64,000 nt of DNA from Muricea muricata (taxonomy: Eukaryota > Cnidaria > Anthozoa > Malacalcyonacea > Plexauridae), in the NCBI GenBank assembly GCA_963855995.1, contig OY979716.1, forward strand, positions 25,183,001-25,247,000, in the 5' to 3' direction. Shown here piece after piece: positions 2,166-64,000 of the stretch. Numbering within the stretch: position 1 is the first letter of the stretch; every line of letters begins with the position of its first letter. The position numbers were made by a program, and so were the translations under genes. The notes under the pieces are model-generated. The model saw nothing but the letters and a program-made list of their open reading frames with translations. It made no database searches and was not told the origin of the DNA.

Positions 2166-2686
2166 CTATTTACCCGCGTGTTTTGGCTCAGAAATTACGG
2201 CAATTTGGCCTCGAACTGGAATACTCAACAGGTCACCAGTGCCAGGTGTTTGCCCACGCAGGTCAAAAGAAAGATTCACTCCAGGTCGGAAAACGAGGCA
2301 ATGACTGGAGCCACCAAAATGAAACATACCAAGCTGGTCTCCCTTCTTAACACGATCTCCAGCCTTTACTGTAATCTCGTTGGTAGATACTTCTGCCATA
2401 CCAATTGAGATGAAGGCCATCAAACCAATATCGGGGTTATCTGCTTGGATATAGATAATACCCCGAGCAGCCACATGGGCAAGATAGGTTTGAGATTTTT
2501 CCATGGCTTTGTGATCATTTTTGATATGGTAGGTGTGAGAATAATATGAACCATCAACTAACTCTGTCTTCAGGATTATACCGGAAACAGGACTATGCCA
2601 TCGATGATAATTAGTGGCGTACAGTATACCTTGGTACACTGTCCCACCGTAGAACTTCTCAGCCATTTCAGAGTTGAACATGTGAT
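2166..2686 (-). CDS. Decarboxylase exon: catalytic core and pyruvoyl site
   Basis: The acceptor is TTTAG/ATCAC. It encodes GGTVYQ, the histidine motif YHRWHSP, GMAEVSTNEITVKAGDRV and the processing site FHFGGSSHCL, then a short tail ending in a stop at 2166. This is the alpha/beta cleavage part of the enzyme. Confidence 0.88.
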
Positions 2687-5600
2687 CTAAACATTTTAAT
2701 AATTTATAAGATCAAGGACACCTAATTTTGTTGCTATATAATATTTAAACAAACACATTTCATTTTTCGTGCACGTGTACTATAATAGATTACAGACAAC
2801 GTCATGCAGTGGCATAAACGAGTGCAGTGACTTTTTGTTTTTCACACGCAATGACGTTTTCCGTGATATATTTAATATAGATTTAGAAAACACGACGCGA
2901 CAGTGCATGAAAATGATGTGATACGACTGGCATCTACTTCGAGCTTTGATCATATTTGTATCTATTTTCCACTTGTCTGCTCCTTTCATGGGGCTCCATC
3001 ATAAAGGAAATATAACACTTTTTTCCTTGTTGGCCGGTATAGCTTTTAATCAACACTCGCGAAATTTTAAAGAAACTCGAAATTGCGTGAAAACACTCAA
3101 TTCCCCCTCACTATTTCTCATTTTTCACCATCAACACTTCAAATGATTTATATTTTTAAAATTTAATGTAAGTCTTTGAGAAACATAAAATTCATTTAAT
3201 TTGGTATCTATCCAAAGTTTAACCACATGGTAAACGTCATTAACGTACGATTCCCAAAATAGACAAATTTGGCTAACAATGTTTTTTCCGTTCTAATCGC
3301 CCAATTCCCAACTTTGGATTATTCACAGGGTTGAATACCATTGTTCTCGCTTGTGGAAGAGTACATTAGGACAAAAGTAACCAGGCATACGAGTGATGAA
3401 TACGAGTTATTCACTAATGTCCATACTTCTAAATGCATAGTTACTGTTGTTCTCCGTTACGCTGCTGCATGCTAATATAATAGTAATTATATAGGAGTGA
3501 TCTTAAAATGTGAATTGGGTATAAACAAACGTTAGCCAAATTTGTCTATGCCTTTAAAAATTCCCTCACAACAATAATTTCATAATTTGATGTTATAATT
3601 TTACAAAAATGTGAGAAAAAATAAACCGAACGATTTAAATTTAAAAAAATTGAAATATTGCTGCTAATTAATTAATAAGTTAACTTGCCTATGGAATATC
3701 GTTGATTCTTGATCCAAAACAAATCATATTTCTTTATGTTATAAGCCAGTTTGAAAGGTGCAGATTCGCAGGCATTCGCGATAATACTGTCGTCATCAGG
3801 CGCATCGACTGGCCGAATTCCATCACGATATTCTCTTACGAAGAAATCATCCCAAGATTTGAAACCATAGTGAGGTTGACTTGGATCACATTTGAATTCT
3901 TCAACGAAGTTAGGCATCGCCTCCATCGCATCTTTACCAAACCAGCCTTTATGTGGATCATCGTTCAAAACATGTGTAGATGCTGGACTCGACAAAAACT
4001 TTCCCCAGTGATTTAAAATGTTCTTGAAATGTCGGTTCACCTTAAAAATAAAGGTCATCAAAACTTGCCACACGGTTGTTAAGATTTATTTACTCTTAGA
4101 TACTTGCGATCCGAATTTAGTGCAGGTACACATAACAATGGCCTGAAAACAAAACGGGGTATGAAAGCTGTTCAAAAGAAGCAGTTTTCATGTCCAAGGA
4201 ATACATTCGTGAGGTGCCTATATCACAATCTCCTGAAACCTCAACGTTGAAGTTGCTAATAAGAGTAGGAAACGCTTCAACCAGCAAAAGAAATTTTAAA
4301 ACATATATTCCGCAAAACACATTTTATTTGAAAAAATATTCTTCCTATTATAATAAATATCATAATAGTTAACTAAACTAAATTAAAATTAAGGGGGCCC
4401 TCTACCTTAAGAACTTTGAAAATTTGAAAAAAAATTTTTTTGCACAAAAATCCAGTTTAGTGCTTGTAGAAAGTTGTAAAAATAAAATTGAGCTTAGTAC
4501 GACCTTCATTCGTCTCAAAATTGCACTTTTTTAGCAGGGTATATAAATTTCTTTCCCGTTGCCATGGCAACGCATTCATATTTACTGTTTATTTGGTCAG
4601 TTTTCTCCGTTGTTTACAAGCGTTTTGATTTTTTTATGTGTTCATGAGACTTCACACATAAGGGACTGGTAATGATACTATATGCCTGGTCACCAAGCCA
4701 TTTGAAAACACATTTTATTCCGTTCTTTGAGAAAATAAGTATCAACACAAAGTATTCTTGAAATATATATATATTGAGTCGGCTATATTTTATTTTGTCG
4801 TTTATTTGTGACTGAAAATATTCTCTCAGTGATTGTCCTTTCTTGGCAATGCCAAAAATTTCGAAAAAGAAGCGATTTCGTGGCAAGAATCGATGGAACA
4901 ATGAGGCAGTTTCAACTTCAACATCGACACCGTCATCGCCATGTGGATCAACATCGGTCAATGAAACCGCTTCGGTAAGAAAGATAACAAGTCAAAATAA
5001 AGATAGGAGAGAAGATTTTGATGGGGAATATAGTTATAGGCTGATAGAATTTTCAAACTTAGCGAAAGCATTTCAATCTTTGCATAACTGTGAATCAGGG
5101 GGAGAGTTGAGTGTTACTGATGATGAGGCTCGTAGATATGGAAATAGCGTTGTTATCATAATTGAGTGCTCAAAGTGTGACACGAAAATTGAGCTTCAAA
5201 CTTCTGGCAACAAAAGCAAAGGATGGAACCCTAAGAATTCTGTTGACATGAATCGCAGAATGGTTTACTCTGCAATGGAAATGGGAGTGGGGAGAGATGG
5301 TATGTCAGTGATGTGTGATGTCTTCAACATGCCTCCGCCTTGCCATCCCAATGCATGGAAAAATCATGTCACTGCACTGTACGAAGCTCACAAGAAAGCA
5401 GTATCTGAACAGTTCAAGAAAGCAAGAGATGTGTCATGTGTCAATTTTAAAAATACATCTTATGTAAATCAAGGGAAATCTGTGCAATTATACAGGATCC
5501 CTTGCACTAATGATTTCTTTTGTATGTTTTTAATAAATTATTTTGATATAAATATACGATATTTACAATTTTCAATTGCCTAGTTTACCCATTTTGGACT

Positions 5601-12689: not shown

Positions 12690-14361
12690 CGTACAAAACA
12701 TCAACTTTTTATGGCCCCAAGATTCACAAATCAACCAGTATTACAACAGCCATCAAAGAACAAAACACGGACTACATAAAACTACCACCACCTCCAAACC
12801 TTAAATTCAGACCCATAGTCGCCGGACCTACATCACCCACACATCGACTCAGCAATGTCGTTGATATAATATTGAAACCTCTGTGAAGGCACGTACCAAG
12901 TTATATAAGGGACGACTTTGATTTCCTGAAACAATATACCACACAAGGTAACGGAGGATACCATATTGGTTTCCTTCGACGTGAGAAGTCTGTACACCAG
13001 CATTCCTCACGAACTGGGATTAAAAGCAATAGAACACCTTTTGGATAATTTCCCCACATTCTACAGCGACCCTTCTCGAAAAAAATTATATTGACAGCTA
13101 TTTCTATTGTACTCAAAGAAAACACATTTAAATTTGATGGAAAGAATTATAAACAAGTACAGGGAACGACTATGGGAAAAAATTGCACCAACATACGCCA
13201 CCCTCGTAGTGGGCTTCCTAGAAAAACAGTTGTACCAAAGAATTGAGGAGAAATACGGAGAAGCGACCAAAACGGAATTTATTAAGAACTTCAAAAGATT
13301 CTTGGACGACTGTTTTATATTCTGGCAAAAATCACGAGAAGAACTGGAAATATTGTTCAACATGCTCAACAACATCAACCCAAAAATTCATTTCACAATG
13401 GAATTCAGCTCCGAAAATCTCCCATTTTTAAACATACTGATCTGTAAAGAGAACACAGAAATACATAGTTATTACAAAGGAACAGACAGTCACCAATATC
13501 TAGACTTTTTTCATGCCATCCAAGACATGTTAAACAGAATAATTATACCGCATGCGTTAGCAAGAAGAATATGCACCTTTGCAACAAAAGACGACATACG
13601 AAACATTCGATAGGGAGAACTAGAAACCTTTTTAACCAACTAAAACCACCCAAAGAAACTTGTTAACAACGGAATATTAATCGAGAAAGCAAAAAAGCTA
13701 ACGATTGAGGAGCTACGTAATCCAAAGAAAAAATCAGACAACAACAACAAAACTCTCCCATTGGTCATTACCCAAAACCCCAATAACCCACAAATCGTAA
13801 ATATGGTTAGACAGAGCATGAACTTCTTGCGACACTCAAAGAAAATGGAGTCAACACTCAAAAATACTGATCTCATTGTAAGCAGAAGACAACCAAAAAA
13901 ACTTAAAACAAATTTTAACGAAGGCAGAATTTTCACAGCGCGATCAAGAGGGAAGTATCAAAGTGCAATGAACCTAGATGCGGGACATGTAACATCATCA
14001 TAACAGGGGATTCCCTAATCCTGAAAGGCAATAAGACGTGGACCACACACTCCTCAATGTCATGTTTGAGCAGGGACGTGATTTATATTATCATTTATTC
14101 AAAATGTCAAGATCGATTACTATATTGGTCAAACTCAAAATTTACGAAATCGTGTTACTCTACACAAGGAACAGATAAAACACGAACAGTATAGATATCT
14201 ACCGGTAAGCAAACACCTCCACAGCTGCAACAACGGGATGTTCAGAATAATGCCAATTTACCAATGTTCGAACAATAATAGAATTGAAAAGGAGTCTAAA
14301 GAAAATAACATTGTATCAATCCTCGAACCAAAGCTTAATGCATGTAATAGCACTTATGTGG
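12690..14361 (+). pseudogene. Penelope-like element: reverse transcriptase plus GIY-YIG endonuclease, broken
   Basis: Read through several frame changes, this encodes a Penelope-type retroelement protein. The parts in order are YGPKIHKS and FRPIVAGPTSPTHRLSNVVD (12711-12880), SFDVRSLYTSIPHELGLKAI (about 12970-13035), QGTTMGKN then APTYATLVVGFLEKQLY, the catalytic segment FKRFLDDCFIFW (about 13290), and FTMEFSSENLPFLNIL. After more breaks comes KCNEPRCGTCN, then a GIY-YIG domain with YYIGQTQNLRNRVTLHKEQ (about 14115-14175) ending SILEPKLNACN. Penelope elements use this RT with a GIY-YIG nuclease to insert. The reading frame shifts near 12890, 13190, 13610 and 13980, so this copy is dead, and the N-terminus is missing. 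An ISL2EU-type transposon inserted at about 14348, directly at the stop codon; the 3' tail resumes at 18709. Confidence 0.82.
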
Positions 14362-14749
14362 GTTTTTTACTTCCGGTATAGTCGGAACATGAAATCGAGG
14401 CTTGGTGGGTGTGGCGCGAAATTAAAAAAGAAAACATGTCAACCACTACAGTCTGTAAATAACTCAAGCGTTGTAAATAAGACTCTCAAGCTTTTCCCAA
14501 ACGATATTGAAGGAGCTGAAATAAGCGTTGACCTTCTAAAACAGAAAAGGTAAGTAAAGAAAAGTCAGTAAGATAGTTAAAATGCAGGAAAGGTGCTTCA
14601 ACAAGTGGTTCAAAAACAGTGTTATTGAAAAGGTTAGTAAAATAAACGATAAAATATGTGTGTTTTTTAAGACGTTGTGAGCTGTTTTCTTTCATTATAA
14701 TCGCAAGCTAAGAATATTTATTTCAATATTACTTAGAGTGATGTGTTAG

Positions 14750-16730
14750 ATAGAGAATGGCTGGAATAAGGACCTGATGAATCCAGATATTCCAAAAAAT
14801 ATTGATCGAAAAGTAAAACTACTGCGACCATCAAATTGGTTTCCGGACGGCTCGGAAAAATGGAAAAATGTAACAACAAAAGAGGAAAGTCTACCGAATT
14901 CTCCCTAAGCAATATCACAAACTGCTTTATTAACAGACAACTTATGGATGGACTACCAGCGAATGATTTTAAAAACATCAATCAAAAATCGTATTGACTA
15001 TTCAAAGCAGGGCATATTCAATATGTTAAACTACTACGGAAAGATTTGTGCGAAGTGTACATCAAATGTGCATGCCTACCGGAAATGCGAAAAAACACGG
15101 AATATACCGTTAATCTGATTATAAAAAAACGGACGGTGAAATTGAGTTTGCAAGATGCGGTTGCCCGCAGTGAAAGGTCCTCACGGAAGTTGCAAACACA
15201 TAGCAGCTCTGTGCTATTGCTTGGTAGAGTATGCGACTGTTGGTGCAGTAAGAAATCATGAAACATGTACAGCAAAATTGCAAACTTGGAATCAGCCTCG
15301 AAGCAAGAAACTACCTGGGATGTTAGCACGCGACATAAACTTTCAAAAACCAAAAAAAAAAAGGGTTGTAATAAAAGCAGTAAATGCAGAGCACCTAGAG
15401 ATGCAAAATCTGCTTTTGAACATATAAGCACCCCTAGTAAATACCAGTCGAGAAGTTCGTCAGAGGCCAATGATGCACTGAGATCATTTTGTACAAAATA
15501 CAAATTAAATTCATGTTTTCTTCACTGCTTGAGAGAAAATACTGGTGGTAATGAAAATTCCACAGAGAAGGAAACAGTAAATAATAGTAATAAAGTCATA
15601 AAAAGTAGTAAAGACATAAGATAATTGTATATCCTGTAGATAGCAACCCAAATTCTAAATCAAATAATGTGAATAGTAAGGTAAAAGACAGTATAAATAG
15701 TAATACTAATACCACAATGAGTAATGGAATTATGAATGATATAATTAACAATGCAACCACTGACATATTAATGAGTAATGAATTAGAGACACCAACAAAG
15801 AAGTCTCCACAGAATCAAACACAAGCATCAATACAGTCCGTTTTAAGATGCTTAATGATGCCAGATAATGAAAATAGTTTCTCCATCAAGCGGTATCAGG
15901 TGAGAGACAACAAAACTTTAACCTTACTCGAGTTTAATTTAAAGAAACAGTGAAAGACTACAAACCTAAACTTGATCACAATTCGGAAACGTTCTATTCC
16001 AGCAAAGTAGAAGTAAACTGCCAACAAACAATTCAAATGGAAGCTTCAACAAGGGAGCAGGGCAACAGTTCTTTATGGCATTCCGCTAGATCTGTTCGAC
16101 TGACTTCATCACAATTTGGGGATGTTATTTGCCGGAAAAAAGCAGATGTCACAAAATTATTTGAGTCCATGTTTAGTCAAAAAGATATAAGTCATATACC
16201 AGCAGTAAAAGCATTCAGGGAAATGGAGCACACAGTTGCAAACTGTAATAAAATATACAAGAAGAGAAATGGATGTCTTGAGACTGAAATATACTGTTCA
16301 GGATTGGTTCTAAACCCAGATTACCCATGGCTAGGTGCCTCGATCACCTGATAGGATTGTGTATGATCCTTCATCAAATCCATGCATTGTTGGGTTAGAA
16401 TGTAAATTCATTTCTTTAGCTAAAGGACTTTCCCCCATGCAGGCTTATCATGCAAAGAAACAAAACAAAAAAGCATTTTGCCTTAATGTAGAAGGATACC
16501 TTTCACTGAAGACAACTCACAAATTTTACTATGAAATCCAAGGACAATGTGCCATAGCGAACTTTGCCTGGGTTGACTTAGCAATCATGACTGATCCACT
16601 ATTACATGACCATGGATTTTTTACTCAGAGGATCTATTTTGACAAAGGCAGATGGGAATCAGATTGGCTGCCAAAACTGACTAATCTTTACTTTGTTCAT
16701 TTGCTTCCGAAAATGTTGGGTATAAACTAA
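14750..16730 (+). pseudogene. SWIM zinc-finger plus YqaJ-type nuclease accessory protein, broken
   Basis: The accessory gene of the ISL2EU-type element. Successive frame fragments read RPSNWFPDGSEKW (14820), LPANDFKNINQKSY-stop-LFKAGHIQYVKL (14950-15040), CACLPEMRKNTEYTV, and a SWIM motif split by a one-base slip: FARCGCP, then AVKGPHGSCKHIAALCYCLV (15145-15230). An asparagine-rich linker follows (15650-15780). The nuclease domain has SARSVRLTSSQFGDVICRKK (16080-16140), then SPDRIVYDPSS and GLECKF, giving the D...ExK catalytic signature of YqaJ/lambda-exonuclease folds, and QGQCAIANFAWVDLAI. A frame break at about 16340 separates LGA from SPDR. SWIM domains bind DNA or protein; the nuclease probably helps process transposon ends, by analogy only. 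At least four breaks, so not translated as one protein. Confidence 0.8.
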
Positions 16731-17149
16731 AAATATGAACACAAACAGTTGAAACAGTAAATTATTATAATCATTATACACAGGACAAATGCTTAGATAA
16801 TAATTGAGCCAGTAAATCTAATATCTACATGGCTGTGTTACCAATGTTAATTAGTGGGATTAATTGGTAAAAGTAGTTAACATTGAGCTATTCCATTCAA
16901 TATACCCCCACCTGTAATGAGTATTTTCTTGATATCCAAGGGAAGAGAGAAATCCCACCGTGGGGGTAACTATGGGAAAATCCATCCAAGGGGGTAAAAG
17001 TATAATTTTATTGAAAGGGATTCAAAATTTATCCCTTAATAGGAGGTGCATTAATATGAAATGAACTGGTCCATCATGACATGAGAGGTGGTTGAAAGTT
17101 TGTTAACATAGCACAAACAAAAAAAATTTGGTCAATTTATTTGTTCTGA
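16731..17149. other. Spacer between the two convergent ISL2EU-type genes
   Basis: Non-coding AT-rich spacer carrying the 3' ends of the two convergent transposon genes. No separate feature seen. Confidence 0.4.
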
Positions 17150-18526
17150 CACATTGAAACAGGGCTGAAGTCCAAAATATGATAATTCTTTATCCTCTCA
17201 ATGGATCGCTTTACATGAATTCGAACAGTGGCAATTCGCCTAGTTTGCATTAACTTGTTTTCACTCAACTCTGGTTTTCATTCAAAGATGGTGGAATATT
17301 TACCCTAACTCCTTTTTGTTCAAATAAACCCTGAATAGTAAACCCACGATCAGCCATGAGTACAGTACATCCTTCCTTTCCCAATCTTTCTCACAAATAC
17401 GACACTTTATTGTTAGCTCTCTGTCAGAAATCGATCCCTCATACAAATCTGAAATACATGTCAATGAGCCAGAAGGATCATGCCGACCAAAAGCTTGAGA
17501 GTGTTCCTATTTTTATAAGTGAAAAATTAATGTAGCTTGTTGCGCTGTGGCATTTGATGGTTTTTCAATATATATTTCAGTTGCATCTGAGTTCTGGATA
17601 GAGGTTTCCAACATGTTCAGGCATATACTCGTTGCATTGCTGACGAAATGGCCATAATCTATCAAGCTCCTTAAATTTGGCATACATGAAGGGAATCCAT
17701 GTTGTAATGATTCTGGAGACAATACTTTGGTGCAGCTGAAATCTAACAGCAATGTCCTGCTCAAGTAGACCAACCTTAAGTCTTGTAAGTACAAGAAGGA
17801 ATTCATTGACAGGTGACAGCATTCTGGAAGGTCCTCTCTTTGACCCAGTCACTTGTCCTTCTTGTTCGTAGTCACTGGTTCCTTTGTATCGAAGACAAGA
17901 TACCGATTCACCAAAAAATTCCAAGCATGCCTGAAATTGCATGTACGAAAATCCGGTATACAACTTGAAGAGTTTATCATCCTTAGCGAGACTTTCTGCG
18001 CAAAGTTTCTTGACTTCACCATCAGCCAAAAGTTGTTTGAGGTTTTCTTGAGTGTTCTGTAATTCCGCTTCCAATGTGTCTTTCCGCTGTTGCAACACAT
18101 CTTCGTTGAGGAAAGAAAATGTCTCCTCGTTCTCCAAGGGAAGGGAACCATCTTCACCTTCGTCATAGTCAGACTGTTTAGACAAAATTTCACCTGTGTT
18201 GACAGTGTTAGTGTTGACAGTGTTGGTCTTTTCCGCGAGAGGAAGTCGCTGTTTAGGGAGAGTACGTTCTTTAGGTGGTTTGGTGAACGAAGGGTGGCGT
18301 CTTTTCTGAGCATTTTCCTTCCATTGTAGGAGATTAAGAAGCATGAAGGCTCAAAATGCTCGCTGCAAATTCTCACATGCTTGCTCACTGGTGTATGTGT
18401 CTTTCGAATGTTGATAATCCATCTTGCAAGAACCTTGTTGTTTTTCAATGGCAGCCGATGAAATAAAATATCTGACGATTTACTAGATGTATTAGGACAT
18501 CCAAACGATATACAATTTTGAGGCAT
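17150..18526 (-). pseudogene. THAP-domain DDE transposase of the ISL2EU-type element, broken
   Basis: It starts at 18526 with a THAP zinc finger, MPQNCISFGC...RLPLKN...RWIINIR...ICSEHF, so the C2CH residues are intact. One frame shift later (about 18350) comes a linker with a coiled-coil-like stretch, then FKLYTGFSYMQFQACLEFFG (about 17950) and a helix-turn-helix segment LEQDIAVRFQLHQSIVSRII before the DDE core. The first catalytic Asp lies in SDATEIYIEKPSNATAQQAT (about 17580). The third acidic residue, expected as HVER, reads RIHVKRSIERIK (about 17200), a Glu-to-Lys change that should abolish catalysis. Several more frame breaks separate 17150 from 17580. It is convergent with the nuclease gene and shares the element with it. 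Confidence 0.82.
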
Positions 18527-18708
18527 TTCGCCAGTGACTGTTATACTCCTGGAACGTTAAACAGTTCTCAAAATAACTTTAAAAAGTGCTGATATTTTCA
18601 GACTAAAATGTTCGAAGCGTTTGTTTACAATTTCGCGCCGCTCGCCACCAAGCCTCGCTTTCATGTTCAGACTATGTCGGAAGTAAAAAACCCACATACG
18701 TGCTATTA

Positions 18709-21193: not shown

Positions 21194-21245
21194 AAATGTG
21201 GACAACGAGCCACTAAATTAATATCAAATATCTCATCTGGACACA

Positions 21246-22915
21246 ATGGCTTTCCCAACCTTATTTCCAGATGGGCAAGGTGATCCTACTAATCAAGGAC
21301 TTCTAAGAGATGTCCCTCTTAAAGAACGAATAAAGCATCTATTAAAAATTGCTAAAATTATTGATGGTAAATGGGTATACCGTTTTGCTGACCATCCCAG
21401 ATTTTCTTATTGGGCTTTTAATATGATTCAGAGGAAACGAATCTTGCAAGAAAGTGGAGTATTCCTCAAACAGAACCCAGGTGAAGCACATCTTACCATC
21501 GATGAACTGCGTGAAATGGCTGCCAGCAACAATGCTAATCTATTTATGTCTAAGGTATCTAGATATGTTGGGAACATTGCTGGCACAAGTTCTTACTGGA
21601 ATAGAGTACGAGAAGACCGGAAAGCTATTATAACTAATGTTGGAGCACCAACATTATTCTTTACTTTCTCCTCTGCAGATATGCATTGGCCAGAATTACA
21701 TGGCCTGTTTAAAACTGATCGTGACTGTGAAACTGGTAACTCTACCAGTGATGTAAGGCGCCAAAATGTTATTAGCAATCCCCATCCTGTGGATTGGTTT
21801 TGTACCCAACGATTACAAAGCTTCATAAAACACTGGCTTTACGAATCACTGGGGGCAAAATGGCACTGGTTTCGATATGAATATCAGGGAAGAGGCAGTA
21901 TCTAATGTCATGGCACTGCAAAACTATATAATGACCCAGGTTTGTGTCAACTTACACAAACTGTTTTGAAAGGTTTCTTAGCCCAAAAATACAAAGATGA
22001 AAACGATTGTTCTGACACAACTGAGCTAGATGAAGATGTTGAAGCTGGGCAAAGAGCAGCTGAAACAGTATGTCAGTATGTTGACTGGCTATTATCAACT
22101 GTTAATCCGAATCCACCAGATGAGGACATCTGGATAAGACCTCAAGCTCATCCATGTCAAAGGCGTCATAATGATATTCCAGAACATGAAAAACAATCAG
22201 ATTATATAGATCTGTGAAACATGGTTCAGCGATACACCCGTTGTAGTACAAGCTATTGACTTAAAAGAAAGTCAAATGAAACTGAATTAAAATGTAGATT
22301 TCATTTCCCTTTTGATCATTGTTTTCAGACAAAATTAGAATTTGAAAAGATTCACACTTCAGGGGAAGAACATTATCGAGCTAAGATTGTGACTAAACGA
22401 GTGATTCAAGGTTAAATAACCATCACAAACTTCAACTCCAAGGATGGACAGCTAACTGTGATAATCAAGTTGTTATTGATCATTATGCTTGTGTTGAATA
22501 TCTCACAAAATATGCAGCTAAAGGTGAAGCAAGGTAACCTATGTTAACACAGGCATTTAATTCAATTGTGCAAAATCTTGACAGTAATACTGACCCTTGT
22601 AGAGCTATTAAGAAGATGGTTATGAAATCTCTTGAAGAAAGAGATTATGCAGCTCAGGAGACAATGCGTCATTTATTGTCTTCAAAACTTCACAGCTCAT
22701 CCTTTAAAGTGATGCCAGTCAGTCTGAATGGATCACGTAGAGTGCGTGATACAACTGAAGAAGGTGAATCATGTACTGATTACTCACTTCTTGATGTGTA
22801 TGCTAATCGAGAGCAGCAATTCAAACAGAAAATGTTATACCCAGAATATTCCCAACATATTCTCCTAATCCCAAAGGCCCAAATTTTGGGCTTTATTGTA
22901 GATATCAACTTTTAA
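21246..22915 (+). pseudogene. Helitron Rep (HUH endonuclease), with a stop inside the HUH motif
   Basis: [41 protein letters not shown]-like ([16 protein letters not shown]) and [20 protein letters not shown] mark the Helitron-like N domain. The metal-binding HUH motif should follow GRGSI as H-C-H; here it reads GRGSI-stop-CHGTAKLYNDPG, the first histidine codon replaced by TAA at about 21904. Downstream come HPCQRRHNDIPEHEKQSDYI, and the catalytic-tyrosine block VVIDHYACVEYLTKYAAKGE (about 22470-22530) after more breaks, then ALFNSIVQNLDSNTDPCRAI-like text (QAFNSIVQNLDSNTDPC). It cannot make an active Rep. Confidence 0.85.
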
Positions 22916-22979
22916 GGTATAAACCCTGGAAAACAACCCAGAATAATGCTTGGGTTGATCAATAAGCAGCAGATGAGAT

Positions 22980-24720
22980 TTTAATCAATTCATGGCAAGA
23001 ATTCTTGCAAACACCGTATGGACAATCTAATGTCCCAGACTGGTTTGACAAGTTACAAGATGTCATTCAAAGTCAAGAGCCAGAAAATGAACTTTCTCAA
23101 GAACAGGAGAGAACTCGGGAAGAGTGGATGGTAATATCAGACCTTCACACTTCATTTGATAACTCACTAGGGCAAACCCCAGAAACAATGCAAAACTGGC
23201 ATTTTAACAGTGCAAATTATTCAGAACAACAAATCCAAGAAATGCCAACTTGGATAAAAAAGAATAAAGAGGAATGCACTATTGATGGGCACTATGAGGT
23301 TGTTGACATCAACGGTTTTAGTGAAATGCAAAAACTTGCCTATGATATTGTCACGTCTCATTTTGATAATACATCATCTGACAGAGAGTCATTATGTCTC
23401 ATTATAAATGGTGTTGCAGGAACTGGTAAAAGTTACCTCATTAATGCAATTCGCAACTTGTTACAAAGCAGATGTACAGTTACTGCTACAACTAGTAAAG
23501 CAGCATATAATATTAGAGGTGTAACTATACATTCTCTATTAAAGTTACCTATAGGGTCAAGGGGTAATAAAGATCTAACAGGACAAAGTTTGTGTAGGTT
23601 ACAAGAGAGTCTTAACAACATTAATTGCATCATTATTGATGAACACTCCATGCTTGGCCAAGTTACTTTTGGTTGGATGGACAAACGTTGTAAACAAGCA
23701 ATAGGTTTCATTGACAAAGTATTTGGAGGCAAATCTTTGATTTTGACTGGTGATCCAGGTCAATTACCACCAGTAGCAGATAAGCCTCTTTACCATGCTA
23801 AACCATCAAATGCTGTTGGTGAACAAGGTTTTCAAGCATATCATATGTTAAACAAAGTTGTCAAACTGACTGTAAATCAACGTGTGCAAGGTATGACACC
23901 TGAACAAGTTCAGTTCACAGATTTATTACTATGACTTCGCAAAGGCGAATCCACAGTTGATGACTGGGAATTACTTCTGACTCGTCAGCCATCTAATGTC
24001 ACTAACTTGTATGAATTTGAAGATTCTACTAGACTCTTCTACAGTAATAAACAAGTTGGTAATTACAACCACGAGCAACTAACAAAACTTGGGCTTCCAA
24101 TTGCTCATATCAATGCTCTACATTCTTCTGCAGTGGCCAAGAAAATATCCTCAGATGACATGTCTGGATTAGAACAAAAAGGTGCTAGAGTCATGTTAAC
24201 CATGCATTTATGGTCATGTGTTGGTCTTTGCAATGGGGCCACTGGAACAGTTGTTGATATAATCTATTAGAATAACTATCAACCACCTGATTTACCTATT
24301 GCAGTAATGGTAGAATTTGAGAACTACAGAGGTCCTGCATTTATTGAAAGCAAACCGTTGTGCAATATGTCCAATTACTGTCTCATCGCAGACAGAAATA
24401 GGCATCCATGAGAGGCAACAGTTACCTCTCAGACTTGCCTGGGCTCTAACAATACACAAGACCCAGGGACTGAGACTTGCAAAAGCATGGATTGATATTG
24501 GCAAATCTGAAAGAACTGCTGCAGTTTCCTATGTTGCTATTAGCTAAGTAAAATCACTTGCATCCTGTGTCATTGAACCAATGACATATGAACGATTATC
24601 ATCCTTGAAGTCATCAGCTGACTTACAATATAGACTTGAAGAAGAAAACAGGCTAGATCAGTTAGCACAGGCTACTATACCTGTGCATTTAGAACAGAAA
24701 ACTGTTGAGTTTCAACAATA
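22980..24720 (+). pseudogene. Helitron Pif1-like helicase, broken
   Basis: This SF1B helicase domain has an intact Walker A, INGVAGTGKSYLINAIR (about 23405), the motif TATTSKAAYNIRGVTIHSLL, Walker B IIIDEHSMLG (about 23630), and LTGDPGQLPPVADKPLY (about 23745). After a stop at 23932-23934 the frame resumes with DDWELLLTRQPSN; after another at about 24268 it shifts, and motif VI appears as LRLAWALTIHKTQGLRLAKA (about 24430). A final segment PMTYERLSSLKSSADLQYRL runs to the end near 24720. Unwinding of the transposon strand is the known role in Helitrons. Confidence 0.87.
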
Positions 24721-57911: not shown

Positions 57912-59392
57912 TAAACGTGCTGTTTTATGTAATAGTTCAAATACGAGACAGAGGACTTTACCGGGATTTCAAGTACGAGAAGTTCGTTCCAGCCCGAGGC
58001 GCAGCCGAGGCTTCTGACTTCAAAAACTCATCAATTATGCAATTCAAAGTACTAGTACCTTGAAAAATTTCAAACTACTAGTACGTTGAAAAATTTCAAA
58101 CTACTACTAGTTTGAAAACGAATACTTAATCAGCCCCGCTGTCCCCTGAGACATTTCAAATCCGCCACCTGCTTTTAAGAGACTTTTCCTCTAGTTTTAA
58201 AACACTAATTAAATATGTATTTCTTTTGAATAACCTTCATGAATCATTAATGAGTTTTAGAATTGACTGTAAACACTTACCAAAAATTAATATAGGTCTA
58301 CTTTTCATACAGACGAACAATTCATCGTCTCTTGTCTGCTATATTCTCATATGAACGCGTAATCTTTCCTTGTATCTTTCTGTCTTTAGTCAGCCAGCAT
58401 TGTTTTAAATATATCTTCACGGCATTCCAAGTACTCCAGTTCGTTTATCTTTCCCTTTAACAATTTTCGAAGTGTGTTTGGCAGATATTTGCCAACATTG
58501 GCTTTTCATACTTCACAAACAAACAGTCAATGCCGTCATAGTCATAGATAAGGGGGAAGCATGAGGATTTTCGAAAGAGACATAGCATTGTTTTCAAGAG
58601 GTGACACAGCATATCTTGAAAATCAGACGAGTATCATCCACACCTTCCCTATCAGGCCCTCAACATATATAAACAGAAATTTTACATCATGAACCAAGGG
58701 ACTACTTCTACAGATATTCCTCGTTTAATAATGTGCAAGTACACTATTCCTGTATCCAACAAAAATAGTATTTGTGATGCATTGTCTACATGTAAGTATA
58801 ACTACATATGTCAGAGACGCATAGTGCACAGTAAATGCAACATTGGATCAACTCAAAAGTTGTATTGTTAAAAATACACGTATAGACGAGCTTTTGACTT
58901 ACCTTTGAATGGTTCTTGTTGGCTTTATAGTAAACTTGATAATATGGATGTTCTCTTCGCCGTGATATTTTTTCGTCGCCGGTCGCCTACGATGCACAGT
59001 TGACATTTGTTTACAAATTTTGCCGTCGCTCGCAGTAGTTCATTCTATATATTTCCACAGATATTTCGCGGTAATATGATTGTATGAATCCAGACTCTCA
59101 ATAATAAATGCGCCTACGAAAACAGACTGCAAACGCCGTCAATGCGATTCCAAAGCCAAGATTACAGGATTATTTTATTTTCGACATTTACATTGCGGCA
59201 AGCATAAACTTTTGAAATGCATGCATGTTTGTGCTTCAAGTGAAATTCGACACGCACTTAAGTTTTGATGCATTGAAAATAATGACCCCAAAAGTGCAAT
59301 TTTTGATGAGCTTTCTTCGCAATATGACCAATTTCTTGTTGAAAAAATATTTTTATACACGAAAAATGCATAAGCCACTCTATCACTCCTCC
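57912..59392. other. No gene recognised
   Basis: It contains a short tandem TTGAAAAATTTCAAACTACT (58061-58110, two to three units) and an AATCAGCCCCGCTGTCCCCT stretch at 58131 that is roughly inverted relative to GGGGGAGAGCGGGGCTGAGA at 53775, possibly old ends of the Crypton-bearing segment. Otherwise featureless. Confidence 0.4.
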
Positions 59393-59710
59393 TTAAAGGG
59401 ACAGTCCACCCCCAAAACAAGTGCCTCTGATGTAAAAGTCCTTCATTAGCATACCTTAGAATAGCCATTCATTCGCCTCAACTCTCTTTTGTTACCAAGA
59501 TATTAGACTTTGTTTCACTGATCTCATCGCCATTTCACCACGGCCATGTTTGTTGAGCTGGGGGGGGGGTGGGGGCGCAAATATTGCTAATCGTTTGAGT
59601 GCTGTGACGTAATTGTGTGATAGAAAACACAGGAAAATAGAGTGAGCACTGTCGTTTACCAAACTTGTACGAATTTCGTGGGTTTATTTCATTTCAAAGC
59701 GATTTTAACG

Positions 59711-60494
59711 ATGTCGCGACAGAGTTCTAGTAGTTTTTACGAGGCAGATGAAGATTTCATGCTGTCTGAGCAACCTGATATAAAGGTTGAAGAGGATGAA
59801 GCAGAAATCTCGCTACAGCCATACCTGTTCGAGCCAACTAGAAAACTGTCCTCTAGTATGGACAGCGACGAAGAATGCGATGATGATGATTCCGATTCTT
59901 CCTCTGATGACGAGGGCCGCTTGAATAACCTAGAGTGGTAAGTTTTAATTTATATGAAAAACATAGCGATATTTTCTATTCGTATATAATATACTAATAT
60001 TTACGAGACTAGTGCGGTTTATTCCTGGTATCAGGTATAGATTGGGTGTGTTTATTCTCCTAATTTATATCAAAACATCCTCAGGTGTAGATGTGGTCAT
60101 TGCCAAATAATGGATAGAGTAGATAAATCTGTTTGCTGTCAAGAAATCACTGAAATGCTATCTCTTAATGAAGAAGCTATGACAATTGACAAATTAAAAG
60201 AGCCCCTTACTTGTGTAACTGATAATCCAGCATTTGCTGCAGTATGTCAGAACAGCCTGGTATCAATACATGCTGCAGTATGAAAACCAATTTGAAGGAC
60301 CTGAGCACCAAAGAAGCAGACATGTCGCATATAGGCAACTTGCACGATTGGGTTGGGGTATTCTTGGGAGACATGTAAGGGTAGTCCTACCATCCTGTGC
60401 AGTAAGTTGTATCAAAGCACATTTTCCACCACCTGGACCTGAAGATGAACACACTTTTGTTGGTTTTAGGCCACCATCCGAGGAAGATGACTAA
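59711..60494 (+). pseudogene. P2X7 receptor C-terminal ('ballast') domain protein, two exons, one frame break
   Basis: Exon 1 (59711-59937) starts MSRQSSSSFYEADEDFMLSE and carries an acidic tract DSDEECDDDDSDSSSDDEGR. The splice CTAGAGTG/GTAAGT to TCCTCAG/GTGTAG restores W at the junction, giving NNLEWCRCGHCQIMDRVDKS then VCCQEI. Next come EPLTCVTDNPAFAAVC, a frame change near 60250, then TAWYQYMLQYENQFEGPEHQ, SRHVAYRQLARLGWGILGRH, VRVVLPSCAVSCIKAHFPPP and TFVGFRPPSEEDD before the stop. This is the zinc-binding domain known from the cytoplasmic tail of vertebrate P2X7 (Pfam P2RX7_C), where CxCGxC and CC help bind metal. There is no P2X channel part here. Relative to the family a few residues are lost at the frame change, so this copy is probably dead. 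It lies inside the Kolobok element, facing the transposase. Confidence 0.85.
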
Positions 60495-60616
60495 ACAATT
60501 CTTGAGTTTGAGAACAATCACTTAGGACCACTGATTTGAATAATGCTGGATTATGTATCCAATATTAAACTTTGAATATGTAAATGTCCATTTGACTAAG
60601 TGAAGTCATCACGGCA

Positions 60617-63282
60617 TTAGATCAAGGCATTTGCCACAAAAAATGAATGGTCTGGCTTCAGTATGATATCATTATAGTAATTATAGTCACTTTGAGTGGA
60701 ATCGACTGATGTGTGCTTTAATTGCAGCTTGTTTTTCCGGCTTTTCATTGCAAGCAATGTTTTTTGCTGTGGATTTTTTCTTTTCGCCCCCTTTGATTTT
60801 TTTTGTTTCAGGATGCTTTCCATTAGTGCATCAAGGTGACCATAGCTTTTTTCTTCCTTTATTGGTTTAAGCACCCATGTTTTCTGCACTTTAGGAAAGA
60901 CCAAGTTATAATGGAGAGAACCCAATGATGAACCGTGCTTGACCACAGCTTGAATTGCTTCCTAGAACAATTGTGATTATGATCAAGGGCAGCAAGTTGT
61001 GTTCTGGCAACCATCCCCTCATGACTAAAGTGCTGTCTTTTAGGACAATACTTATGCATCATAGAATGGTAAACTTCAAGATTTCCAGTGCGATGAAACT
61101 CTGTGACAAACTTGAGATCCTTCAGAAGCTTTTTGTTGAAGACAACCTCCTCAAGGGCCACATGAGCAGCAGTGCCAAATTTTAGCCAAACTTTCTCTTT
61201 TCTTTCCCGTCTTGACAGTTCACGATGGGCACATTTCTTGAAATGCTTTGCACTTCTCCATGAATGCTTATTGGCAACATGGTTCACAATAGACGTCCAT
61301 TTCTCCAATAAAATTACATAGCTGCCATTACATGTAGCTACACTCCACCAGAAATGAGAAGAAACAGACCGGATCCATGCAGTTAGATCCAGAAACTCTT
61401 TCTTCTTGCTCTTCTTTGACAACTTCTTAACCACCCATTTGACATCATACTGGGGCATTATTTTAGAATGTTTTTTTTTTCTCATTTCTGATGTAATGGT
61501 TGTGTGCCTATCGGTTGTTAGACACCTTATTTTGACTCCTTTACTTTTTAAAGTCTTTAATACTCGATTGCGTCCTTCTGCTTCCATTGCACTGGAGGAT
61601 GAAACTTCGGTAATCTGGACAACTGAGAAATCTAGAATTTTATTACTCTCATCCATCACAGTGTATGTGCCATATTTTGCGCTATGCCCCGGGCTGTCAC
61701 ACCGTCCATCACAGATATCTAATTTTTTTTTATTTTTTACTTCTTCTAATCGTTGCGCAAAAGAGTTTATATTTTGAAAAGAATTCCCACTAAAGAGTAT
61801 TGAGCCAGCAAGTAACACATTCCCAGCTATGTTTGCATCTATTTTTGGTTGTGATTGCCATTTGTTCTTGTGTCCATCCACACATAATGTATGGATCTCC
61901 ACCATGCTACCAACCAGTGTTTTAGAGACCTCAGCATTGGGCTTGAAAGAGGTAAAACAGATGACAAACATCAAGATTATCCTCAAAAACTATAAACTTT
62001 TTTTGCTCAAAGGGACTTCTCTTTGTTTCGTCATCACTTTCAGAATCTATGTCATCTTGATTCTCTGCAGAACTTCCAGGCATGTAGATATCATCCGAAT
62101 CTGTGTCACTACCTGTCCATGTAAGTTCTGAACAGATGCTTTTTTGAGGAATAGTTTTTCAGACTAATGTATTTCCAGGAAATGTACTAGCAGAAGGTTG
62201 TGTATCAATAAAACGAATACCAGAATTGGGCTTCAAACAGTCAATAACAGCAATAGGAGTGCCTGGTGTGGAAATATCACTGACATCAACACTACGTGGA
62301 CAAACATCTGCAGTTTGGATGGCGACACTTGTCATTGCTACCTGATTTTCACACACTAAAAGTTCACATTGAATGCCAACTTCCTTAGTTAATCTCAAAT
62401 TTTCTGTTGGATTTACAGTTACAGAGCTTGAACTTGGAGCCTCTGACATGCATCTGTTGGAGAATATTCAAATACACCACAGCTAGATGGGCTGTCAATT
62501 TGGCATTGATCGCCCCTGACTGATGATGGAAATTGTTGTGCAACAAGACAGTTTTCTATCATCTTTAACAAAGAGAAGAATTATGTGCATACTAGAACCA
62601 TTTTTTGTGCATTTATTACTATAGTATGTTAGGTTTATTGTGTACATTTATGTAATTCATATGCATGATAATAGTTTGTGTGTGTGTGTGTGTTGTGTGT
62701 GTGATTTTATGATTTTTAATCTCAATAAGTATTGACTTATTTAAAAAATGTTGTTCTCCCAAGTGTGTATTATTTTATGTCTCATTGAAGAGAACATGCA
62801 ATTTTCATACACAGAATTTTGTACATGAATCAAACAAAGTGTAAATTTATCTATATTTGTGCACATTTGGGTGTTTATATACGTTTTAACTGTTAATGAA
62901 ATTACACGTTCAATTGTATTTGTACATTTGATACTGAAGTATTTTAAAGACCAGCGCTTTACCTCTCGCTTAGCTTGTTCAGAGCGCATTTGTGTTCTCA
63001 TGCGAACTTTCGTTCGTGGCGTTGTGGGCTTACTGCGGGGAAATATCGAAGGAACTGAGTTCGGTCTTAACCTTGCTCTACTTCGGTAGCCGTGTTCCTC
63101 AAGCAATCAGGCGTGAAATTCTCCGTACAAACGTACGAATTATTAATGTTGCGTGGATTTGCTCGTCGAATTCTGGCCATCCATGCTTGACGCAAACGTT
63201 CATCTTTCGGAACTCGGTGGTAGGTAATGCCTGTAGTTTTCCGTGAGTTGTTGGTACATCCCGGAACCATGCAATGGGGCAT
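60617..63282 (-). pseudogene. Kolobok-type THAP transposase, broken
   Basis: Exon 1 (63282-62963) starts just inside the right TIR with a THAP finger: MPHCMVPGCTNNSRKTTGIT, then RQAWMARIRR and YVCTENFTPDC. The zinc-ligand His expected in 'EHF' is Asn here. A one-base loss after PDC shifts to RARLRPNSVPSIFPRS. The donor is GCGAGAG/GTAAAG. Middle segments (62560-62050) include LRLTKEVGIQCELLVCENQV, SDTDSDDIYMPGSS and KFIVFED. The core 61986-60859 carries NAEVSKTLVGSMVEIHTLCV, LDICDGRCDSPGHSAKYGTY (first catalytic Asp region), SSAMEAEGRNRVLKTLKSKG, CLTTDRHTTI (second Asp) and YDVKWVVKKLSKK. It continues in another frame to about 60617 (QKTWVLKPIKEEKSYGHLDA). At least four frame breaks; not functional. 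Confidence 0.85.
62676..62702 (+). repeat. (TG)n microsatellite
   Basis: A short TG-dinucleotide run within an intron of the Kolobok transposase gene. Confidence 0.9.
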
Positions 63283-63625
63283 TTTAAAAAGTATTTGACT
63301 GCGTTTATAGAAATTGCCTAGCTAAAGATGTAAAGCGCTGACTTGAAAATAAAGCTTTCCGCTTTGTAACACACAATGACGTCAAAGCGCTCAAAAATAC
63401 ACGCAATCCCCCCCCCCCCAGTTCAACAAATATGGCGGCGGTAATATGCGCAAAAATCAGTGAAACAAAGTCTAATATTTCGGTAACAAAAGAGAGTTGA
63501 GGCGAATGAATGGCCATTCTAAGGTATGCTAATGAGGGACTTTTACATAAGCGGCACTTGTTTTGGGGGTGGACTGCCCGTTAATAACATGAAGGGGCGC
63601 TAATTAAAAACACCCCAGGTTTTAG

Positions 63626-63712
63626 GGTGTCACGTGACCAGCCTGAACCATGCAGGGTCTTTGCCGCGGCACGGCGCCGGGCGTAGGTTGAAGACCCTGG
63701 GTACGAAGTTGG
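63626..63712. repeat. GC-rich fold-back with CACGTGAC motif
   Basis: GTGTCACGTGACCAGCCTGA then AGGGTCTTTGCCGCGGCACG, GGCGCCGGGCGTAGG and AAGACCCTGG. AGGGTCTT pairs with AAGACCCT. It is related to the core of the fold-back at 49965-50143 (TCACGTGACCAACCTGAAC, GGGTCTTTACC). Confidence 0.65.
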
Positions 63713-63769
63713 TATATTGAGAATGCTAGGAGAGTCTTAGTGATTAATGCTGGGGATCGACAAGATTTC

Positions 63770-64000
63770 TCTGAATTTAAGTAAATTTTCAGATCAAATA
63801 TGCTAAGAAATTTTTCTTGAAATGATAAAATATTTTCTTATTCCAAAAAACATATTTGACTTGAAAATTTTCTTGAATTAGGAAAATGTTGGAGAACAAA
63901 GTCCTATTTTATGAAAATATTTTCTTAATTTAAGAAAATTTTCTTAAGAAAATCTTCTTAATAAGAAAAAAATTCTTATTAAGAAAATTTTCTTGTTATT
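63770..64000. repeat. Cluster of AAGAAAATTTTCTT palindromes
   Basis: TTTTCTT/AAGAAAA units in both orientations recur at least twelve times to the end of the window, for example TTAAGAAAATTTTCTTAAG at about 63929 and TCTTAATAAG...CTTATTAAGA at about 63955. Spacing is irregular, so it is not a simple tandem repeat. It continues past the window edge. Confidence 0.8.

Follow-up and report, generated by a model that had tools for sequence, protein, structure and literature searches.

The last part of the window, a 64,000-nucleotide stretch of the Muricea muricata genome that we analysed as a whole, raises the question of whether a ballast domain like that of the P2X7 C-terminus can be a regular part of a DNA transposon, and whether mobility offers a route by which this domain was captured. 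A precedent exists in the work of Kojima & Bao 2022 (PMC9587614), the available sections of which name the second protein of Kolobok transposons KolX, identify it as a ballast fold, describe the KolX of Kol0 elements as clearly similar to residues 476-595 of P2X7, and derive P2X7 from the fusion of a P2X4-like gene with KolX. The fish protein Nanor is presented there as a likely domesticated KolX. Our literature search, judged by its listings, found no other paper making this link; PMC9319628 contains both words, Kolobok and P2X7, in unrelated places. That P2X7 derives from KolX is thus already published, and the present work is support and refinement of that step. Added here are a family from an octocoral genome, counts of how often the two genes travel together, the conservation of KolX, and a split of KolX into two classes.

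We examined the ends of the element, which spans 4184 bp (window 59397-63580) and is bounded by TTAA on both sides (Table 1). The arms 59396-59522 and 63456-63582 are inverted and 94% complementary across 127 nt, and a gapped alignment extends them to about 230 and 218 nt with a score of 266; the top score among 300 random window pairs of the same spacing was 29. The terminal inverted repeats (TIRs) of 220 bp and the TTAA on either side, as originally predicted, were therefore confirmed. Kolobok termini are given as 5'-RR ... YY-3' in the accessible part of PMC9587614. The left terminus of the window copy, AG, agrees with this, but the right terminus reads ...CCCG, which is not YY; most sister copies end in ...CCCT. 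Long terminal direct repeats of the KolobokP type (about 450 or 660 bp) were not present in 59000-64000, where the ends are inverted. An Rfam scan of the whole window gave no match.

Table 1. Features of the Kolobok element, in window coordinates.
Feature	Position	Strand	Basis and remarks
TTAA target-site duplication, left	59393..59396		sequence
Left terminal inverted repeat	59397..59626	+	first 126 nt 94% complementary to other end, weaker to about 59626
KolX exon 1	59711..59937	+	ATG at 59711; acidic, Ser-rich N-terminus; motif QPYLFEP
KolX intron	59938..60084	+	GT...AG, 147 nt
KolX exon 2	60085..60494	+	ballast (P2RX7_C); CRCGHC, VCC, LTC, PSC cysteines; two frames here
Transposase body	60617..62467	-	pieces 62159-62467, 61931-62158, 60859-61989, 60617-60961; ORFs, relatives
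THAP-domain ORF of transposase	63067..63321	-	Pfam PF05485, 53.5 bits
Right terminal inverted repeat	63363..63580	-	arm alignment
TTAA target-site duplication, right	63581..63584		sequence

The KolX gene of this copy could be read across its intron, with its donor GT at 59938 and its acceptor AG at 60083-60084; splicing brings ...LNNLE[W] next to CRCGHC. When both predicted genes were run against Pfam, the THAP domain was found on one strand, and the ORF at 60219-60494 (+) matched the ballast family PF20478 (P2RX7_C) at 23.7 bits (cut-off 23.5), a value obtained on a broken copy; the same model gave 40.0 and 40.3 bits on the open exons of two sister copies (L021 and L019). The ballast exon of the window copy is broken across the frames 60041-60283 and 60219-60494, and single-frame versions were found in six other stretches (L011, L016, L017, L019, L020 and L021). 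Taking both frames together, all seven zinc-site cysteines are readable in the window. The prediction of a spliced gene with the P2X7 C-terminal domain thus held for the splice pattern and the domain, but in the window copy the gene is broken.

The transposase gene is broken as well, so that the window copy as a whole is decayed. Between the end of its body and the stop of KolX lie 122 bp, and the two genes converge. Pfam recognised no DDE domain in the window, and the transposase was identified by its relatives. The window core is 75-76% alike to P0098, and among 15 relatives of a sister-copy transposase the motifs GDGR, TDRH, DxWH and LE...H vary little or not at all. These motifs fit a Kolobok DDE-type transposase with D/CxxH, the catalytic roles being our own assignment. 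The transposase relatives showed no second CCHC finger following the first D. Of the THAP-DDE transposase foreseen in the original prediction, the THAP part and the motifs of the relatives stood, while in the window itself the gene lies in pieces and the DDE part escaped Pfam.

Other features of the window were also recorded. At 14345-18708, a THAP ORF and an HTH_Tnp_4 ORF (17577-18556, minus strand) are enclosed by an 81% inverted pair (14345-14461 and 18593-18708), which looks like another DNA transposon and is presumably ISL2EU-like. A Helitron with Helitron_like_N and PIF1 helicase ORFs lies at 21222-23934, and on the minus strand 2166-4085 contains fragments of a phosphatidylserine decarboxylase gene that seems to belong to the host. 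Elsewhere in the genome, contig C74 (19,292 bp) has COX1, the small rRNA and an apparent NAD1 on one strand, with apparent COX2, ATP8 and ATP6 on the other, the genes other than COX1 and the rRNA being named by eye; this is the mitochondrial gene order of octocorals. Another COX1 match, interrupted by one stop, lies on a nuclear contig (C1:38414782-38416095, L065) and probably represents mitochondrial DNA copied into the nucleus.

We then collected sister copies by searching the genome (453 Mb, 74 contigs) with the left TIR, which gave 42 candidates and 40 scored matches. Twenty stretches chosen around these matches, together with the window, made 21, and both ends were present in 16. The results showed KolX pieces between the TIRs in 15 of the 16 two-ended copies, bearing out the expectation that most full-length copies contain the domain gene; L022, a relative of 1.4 kb, has THAP pieces alone. 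KolX was also present in four of the five one-ended stretches, one of which (L024) is the distal part of a copy starting in L023. TTAA was found at both ends in 14/16 two-ended copies. The window copy, L009, L010 and L023/L024 were rejected as independent copies: the window stretch and L009 are 99.8% identical across 4786 aligned bases, and the left flanks of the window and L010 are 99.3% identical across 296. The shared flanks indicate one insertion that was duplicated with its surroundings. Likewise not independent are L026 and L027, which share flanks and are 99.8% identical across 4870 bases; some 0.6 kb ahead of the first window position lies L027 (C1:25177000-25182418), which belongs to the same family and has its duplicate, L026, at C1:25.90 Mb. 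Judged by flanks of 12 bases, the two-ended copies represent 14 distinct insertions, and 13 of them have KolX. The ballast exon is open to the stop in 6/21 stretches, and a GT...AG intron of 119-147 nt fits five of these six; for the remaining open copy (L017) the acceptor pattern search gave no intron acceptor.

These copies bear on the explanation that the ballast gene is part of another transposon that lies nested within the Kolobok. Nested or neighbouring elements do occur in this genome, as at L063 beside a Polinton-like ATPase, but the constant place of the ballast gene between the TIRs (15/16 two-ended copies, 13/14 distinct insertions) makes us regard nesting as extremely improbable. 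The gene keeps a constant side of the transposase, and no separate TTAA-bounded insert was noticed when the gene layout of the copies was compared; to this extent the gene lacks insertion scars of its own, as had been expected.

The pairing of the two genes was further assessed across the genome with four queries. The P2RX7_C profile yielded 740 candidates, of which the best 150 were scored, and all 150 passed the cut-off. The open exon of L019 gave 151 matches from the best 150 of 883 candidates. For the transposase, the best 130 of 734 candidates were scored with the core of another subfamily, and the best 74 of 1459 with the window-type protein, giving 83 matches. Further pieces of already listed copies were dropped (12 for the L019 exon, 6 for the other-subfamily transposase and 18 for the window-type transposase), leaving 150 + 139 rows for the ballast and 124 + 65 for the transposase, which merged into at least 289 ballast and at least 183 transposase loci, duplicated regions being counted separately. 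The results showed a ballast locus within 5 kb of 134/183 sampled transposase loci and a transposase within 5 kb of 133/289 sampled ballast loci, with convergent order in 132 of the 133 pairs; when loci were placed at random in 200 trials, the count averaged 2.7 and never exceeded 8. Among sampled window-type transposase loci, 58 of 65 had a ballast within 5 kb. In a separate test of the 30 best ballast loci, two queries of which were transposase ends recognised by eye in L029 and L030, 24 had a Kolobok transposase end within 1.5 kb, on the opposite strand in every case.

Within the same sample, 49/183 transposase loci (7/65 of the window type) had no sampled ballast within 5 kb, and 156/289 ballast loci had no sampled transposase within this distance; some of the latter may be host genes or relics. 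Contig C1 (124 Mb, 27% of the genome) holds 207 of the 289 sampled ballast loci, an excess for which either the elements cluster there or the search sampling favours C1. A 2543-aa frame with a ballast end at C1:21231323 (L059) was discarded as an artefact of a stretch reading as N. At L063 (C1:67157600-67165600), a Kolobok transposase and a ballast ORF directly adjoin a Polinton-like ORF for a Pox_A32-type ATPase. We rejected the ballast of the L054/L063 region as part of a Polinton-like element, because a Kolobok transposase stands in the usual convergent place; the region is therefore tentatively read as neighbouring or nested elements.

To compare the histories of the two parts, we used 26 of 37 stretches in which both were long enough, L036 and L062 being the same place. 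Ballast and transposase distances were correlated over these 26 loci (r 0.865; 0/2000 permutations as high), and after near relatives had been collapsed into 7 families the correlation was 0.862 (36/2000 permutations as high). The two histories are thus related, as the original prediction required. We also estimated dN/dS from pairs with dS of 0.1-1.5; the pairs share sequences, and the class A loci (the other KolX class of this genome, described below) were picked by Pfam score. With these provisos, the median was 0.119 (0.078-0.242) for the class A ballast in 23 pairs, 0.289 (0.207-0.413) for the transposase C-terminus in 15 pairs, and 0.107 for the ballast of the window family against L028 in 7 pairs of 63 codons. 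No pair had a dN/dS above 1.

The correlation and the dN/dS values argue against the ballast gene being host DNA captured by chance, as transduced cargo useless to the element. Capture does occur, and Kolobok lineages are described as carrying various accessory genes in the consulted sections of PMC9587614. However, the same convergent pair is found in two deep KolX classes, the distances of its members are correlated, and ballast dN/dS lies near 0.1; chance capture is mostly refuted by these results, and we consider it very unlikely. As judged from the sequences, KolX is a constant part of these elements, conserved and inherited together with the transposase. The expectation that the domain is regular cargo proved right in that KolX is regularly in the element, but "cargo" is too weak a word because KolX is so conserved.

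To place KolX relative to P2X7, we searched PDB and constructed a tree. As a single query, the window class found P2X7 weakly, at E 0.29 and behind an unrelated chain at 0.11, whereas class A from the same genome found it strongly, at E 7e-25 (91 bits). A profile of 25 KolX relatives gave P2X7 as the best match (2.2e-8) and as the only one at E <= 0.01. In a tree of 28 sequences (2 P2X7, 14 class A and 12 window class), the window class was split from class A plus P2X7 with a support of 100/100; the P2X7 branch is long and its position inside class A unsettled, and two further rows are also long. The genome holds two deep KolX classes, a split absent from the available part of the KolX account in PMC9587614, and the donor of the P2X7 domain was probably class A, not the class of the window.

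Features of the proteins were also compared. At class A left ends (L055, L056 and L058 among the matches listed), TTAA is followed by AG[AG]CCATGTAAAGTCC, with differing flanks; self-comparison of five class A stretches yielded no long inverted ends. Upstream of the class A ballast and on the same strand, a cysteine-rich motif was found in 19/34 stretches (17/30 without repeated places), against 0/34 on the opposite strand, a control made for this motif only, and RG repeats in 22/34 (20/30 without repeated places). Of the 120 class A relatives listed, 5 have the cysteine-rich/RG part and the ballast in a single chain; these are proteins of Dendronephthya, Paramuricea, Ptychodera and Saccoglossus. 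No Pfam family was found for the cysteine-rich part in 8 proteins. The window class has an acidic N-terminus; [PG]Y.[FY]EP occurs in 10/97 listed relatives, and 12/97 exceed 180 aa. Proteins of the octocorals Xenia, Dendronephthya and Paramuricea are among the named relatives of KolX. The model of a coral KolX (P0006) had a mean pLDDT of 78.7; residues 71-160 reached 86-97 when averaged by block, and the N-terminus was poorly predicted. In an alignment of both KolX classes the seven cysteines are nearly invariant. Rump et al. 2020 named R546-H547, R574, R578 and K583 as GDP residues of P2X7 in the passages available (PMC7016195); in our alignments the window class retains the R546-H547 match and R578, without R574 and K583.

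This partly retained guanine-nucleotide site touches on a further explanation, namely that KolX is selected but acts on the host, through anti-silencing or expression control, and not in the transposition reaction. Selection and co-inheritance are silent on which function is selected, and the P2X7 ballast has such a nucleotide site, but the upstream parts of class A (cysteine-rich motif, RG repeats) appear more like nucleic-acid binding. We regard a host-directed role as unlikely, although it is the most serious of the alternatives.

Compared with known systems, the window element resembles Kol0 elements with KolX (Kolobok-1_XT type), as described in parts of PMC9587614, in its TTAA, its transposase and its second, ballast-domain protein. 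It differs in apparently forming a separate family, found in an octocoral and compared with Kol0 by published description, and in that the Muricea muricata genome also has a second KolX class. KolobokP, KolobokE and KolobokD belong to the same superfamily and also carry an accessory gene, but the sections available describe theirs as a His-Me nuclease, a lambda-exonuclease-like protein and a DEDDh nuclease, respectively, whereas the window element has KolX. With the P2X7 ballast (PF20478; PDB 6u9v, 9e3m) KolX has in common the seven cysteines (WCxCxxC, CC, C-I/V-T and PSC) and the RH..AYR stretch, without the channel part. The stand-alone ZCD proteins and Nanor treated in PMC7016195 are short and carry this domain C-terminally. 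In the passages seen, ZCD proteins number one or few (<10) per species with conserved linkage; here, in contrast, there are 740 candidates, the best 150 of which were scored and pass, and a large share adjoin a Kolobok transposase. The stem "transpos" is absent from the main text of that paper.

Taken as a whole, the element is with high probability a decayed Kol0-like Kolobok with KolX as a standing accessory protein and the other KolX class as the probable donor of the P2X7 tail. It carries convergent THAP transposase and KolX genes, with KolX, a small cysteine-rich ballast protein, conserved and inherited along with the transposase. KolX may aid or regulate transposition as an accessory protein, and its seven cysteines would hold zinc as in P2X7. 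The domain would later have been fused to a P2X4-like gene to form the P2X7 tail, a published step with which our data are consistent. The idea that a mobile element provided the route for this capture is therefore supported, and was already in print in the part of Kojima & Bao 2022 (PMC9587614) available.

A stronger proposal is that KolX is an obligate transposition cofactor in two ancient classes, that the P2X7 tail came from class A with its nucleic-acid-binding-like N-terminus, and that in invertebrates many of the ballast genes regarded as stand-alone belong to transposons and not to the host; we offer this tentatively, as somewhat doubtful. The binding sites of the P2X7 ballast are called of unknown function in the accessible text of PMC9859053. 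If the ancestor of the ballast was a conserved accessory protein of a transposon, the role of KolX in Kolobok would be a direct clue to ballast function in P2X7. If descent from class A is true, the cytoplasmic domain of an inflammatory receptor would go back to the zinc core of a transposon protein associated with nucleic acids. The name "P2X purinoceptor 7-like" in invertebrate genomes can mark transposon genes.
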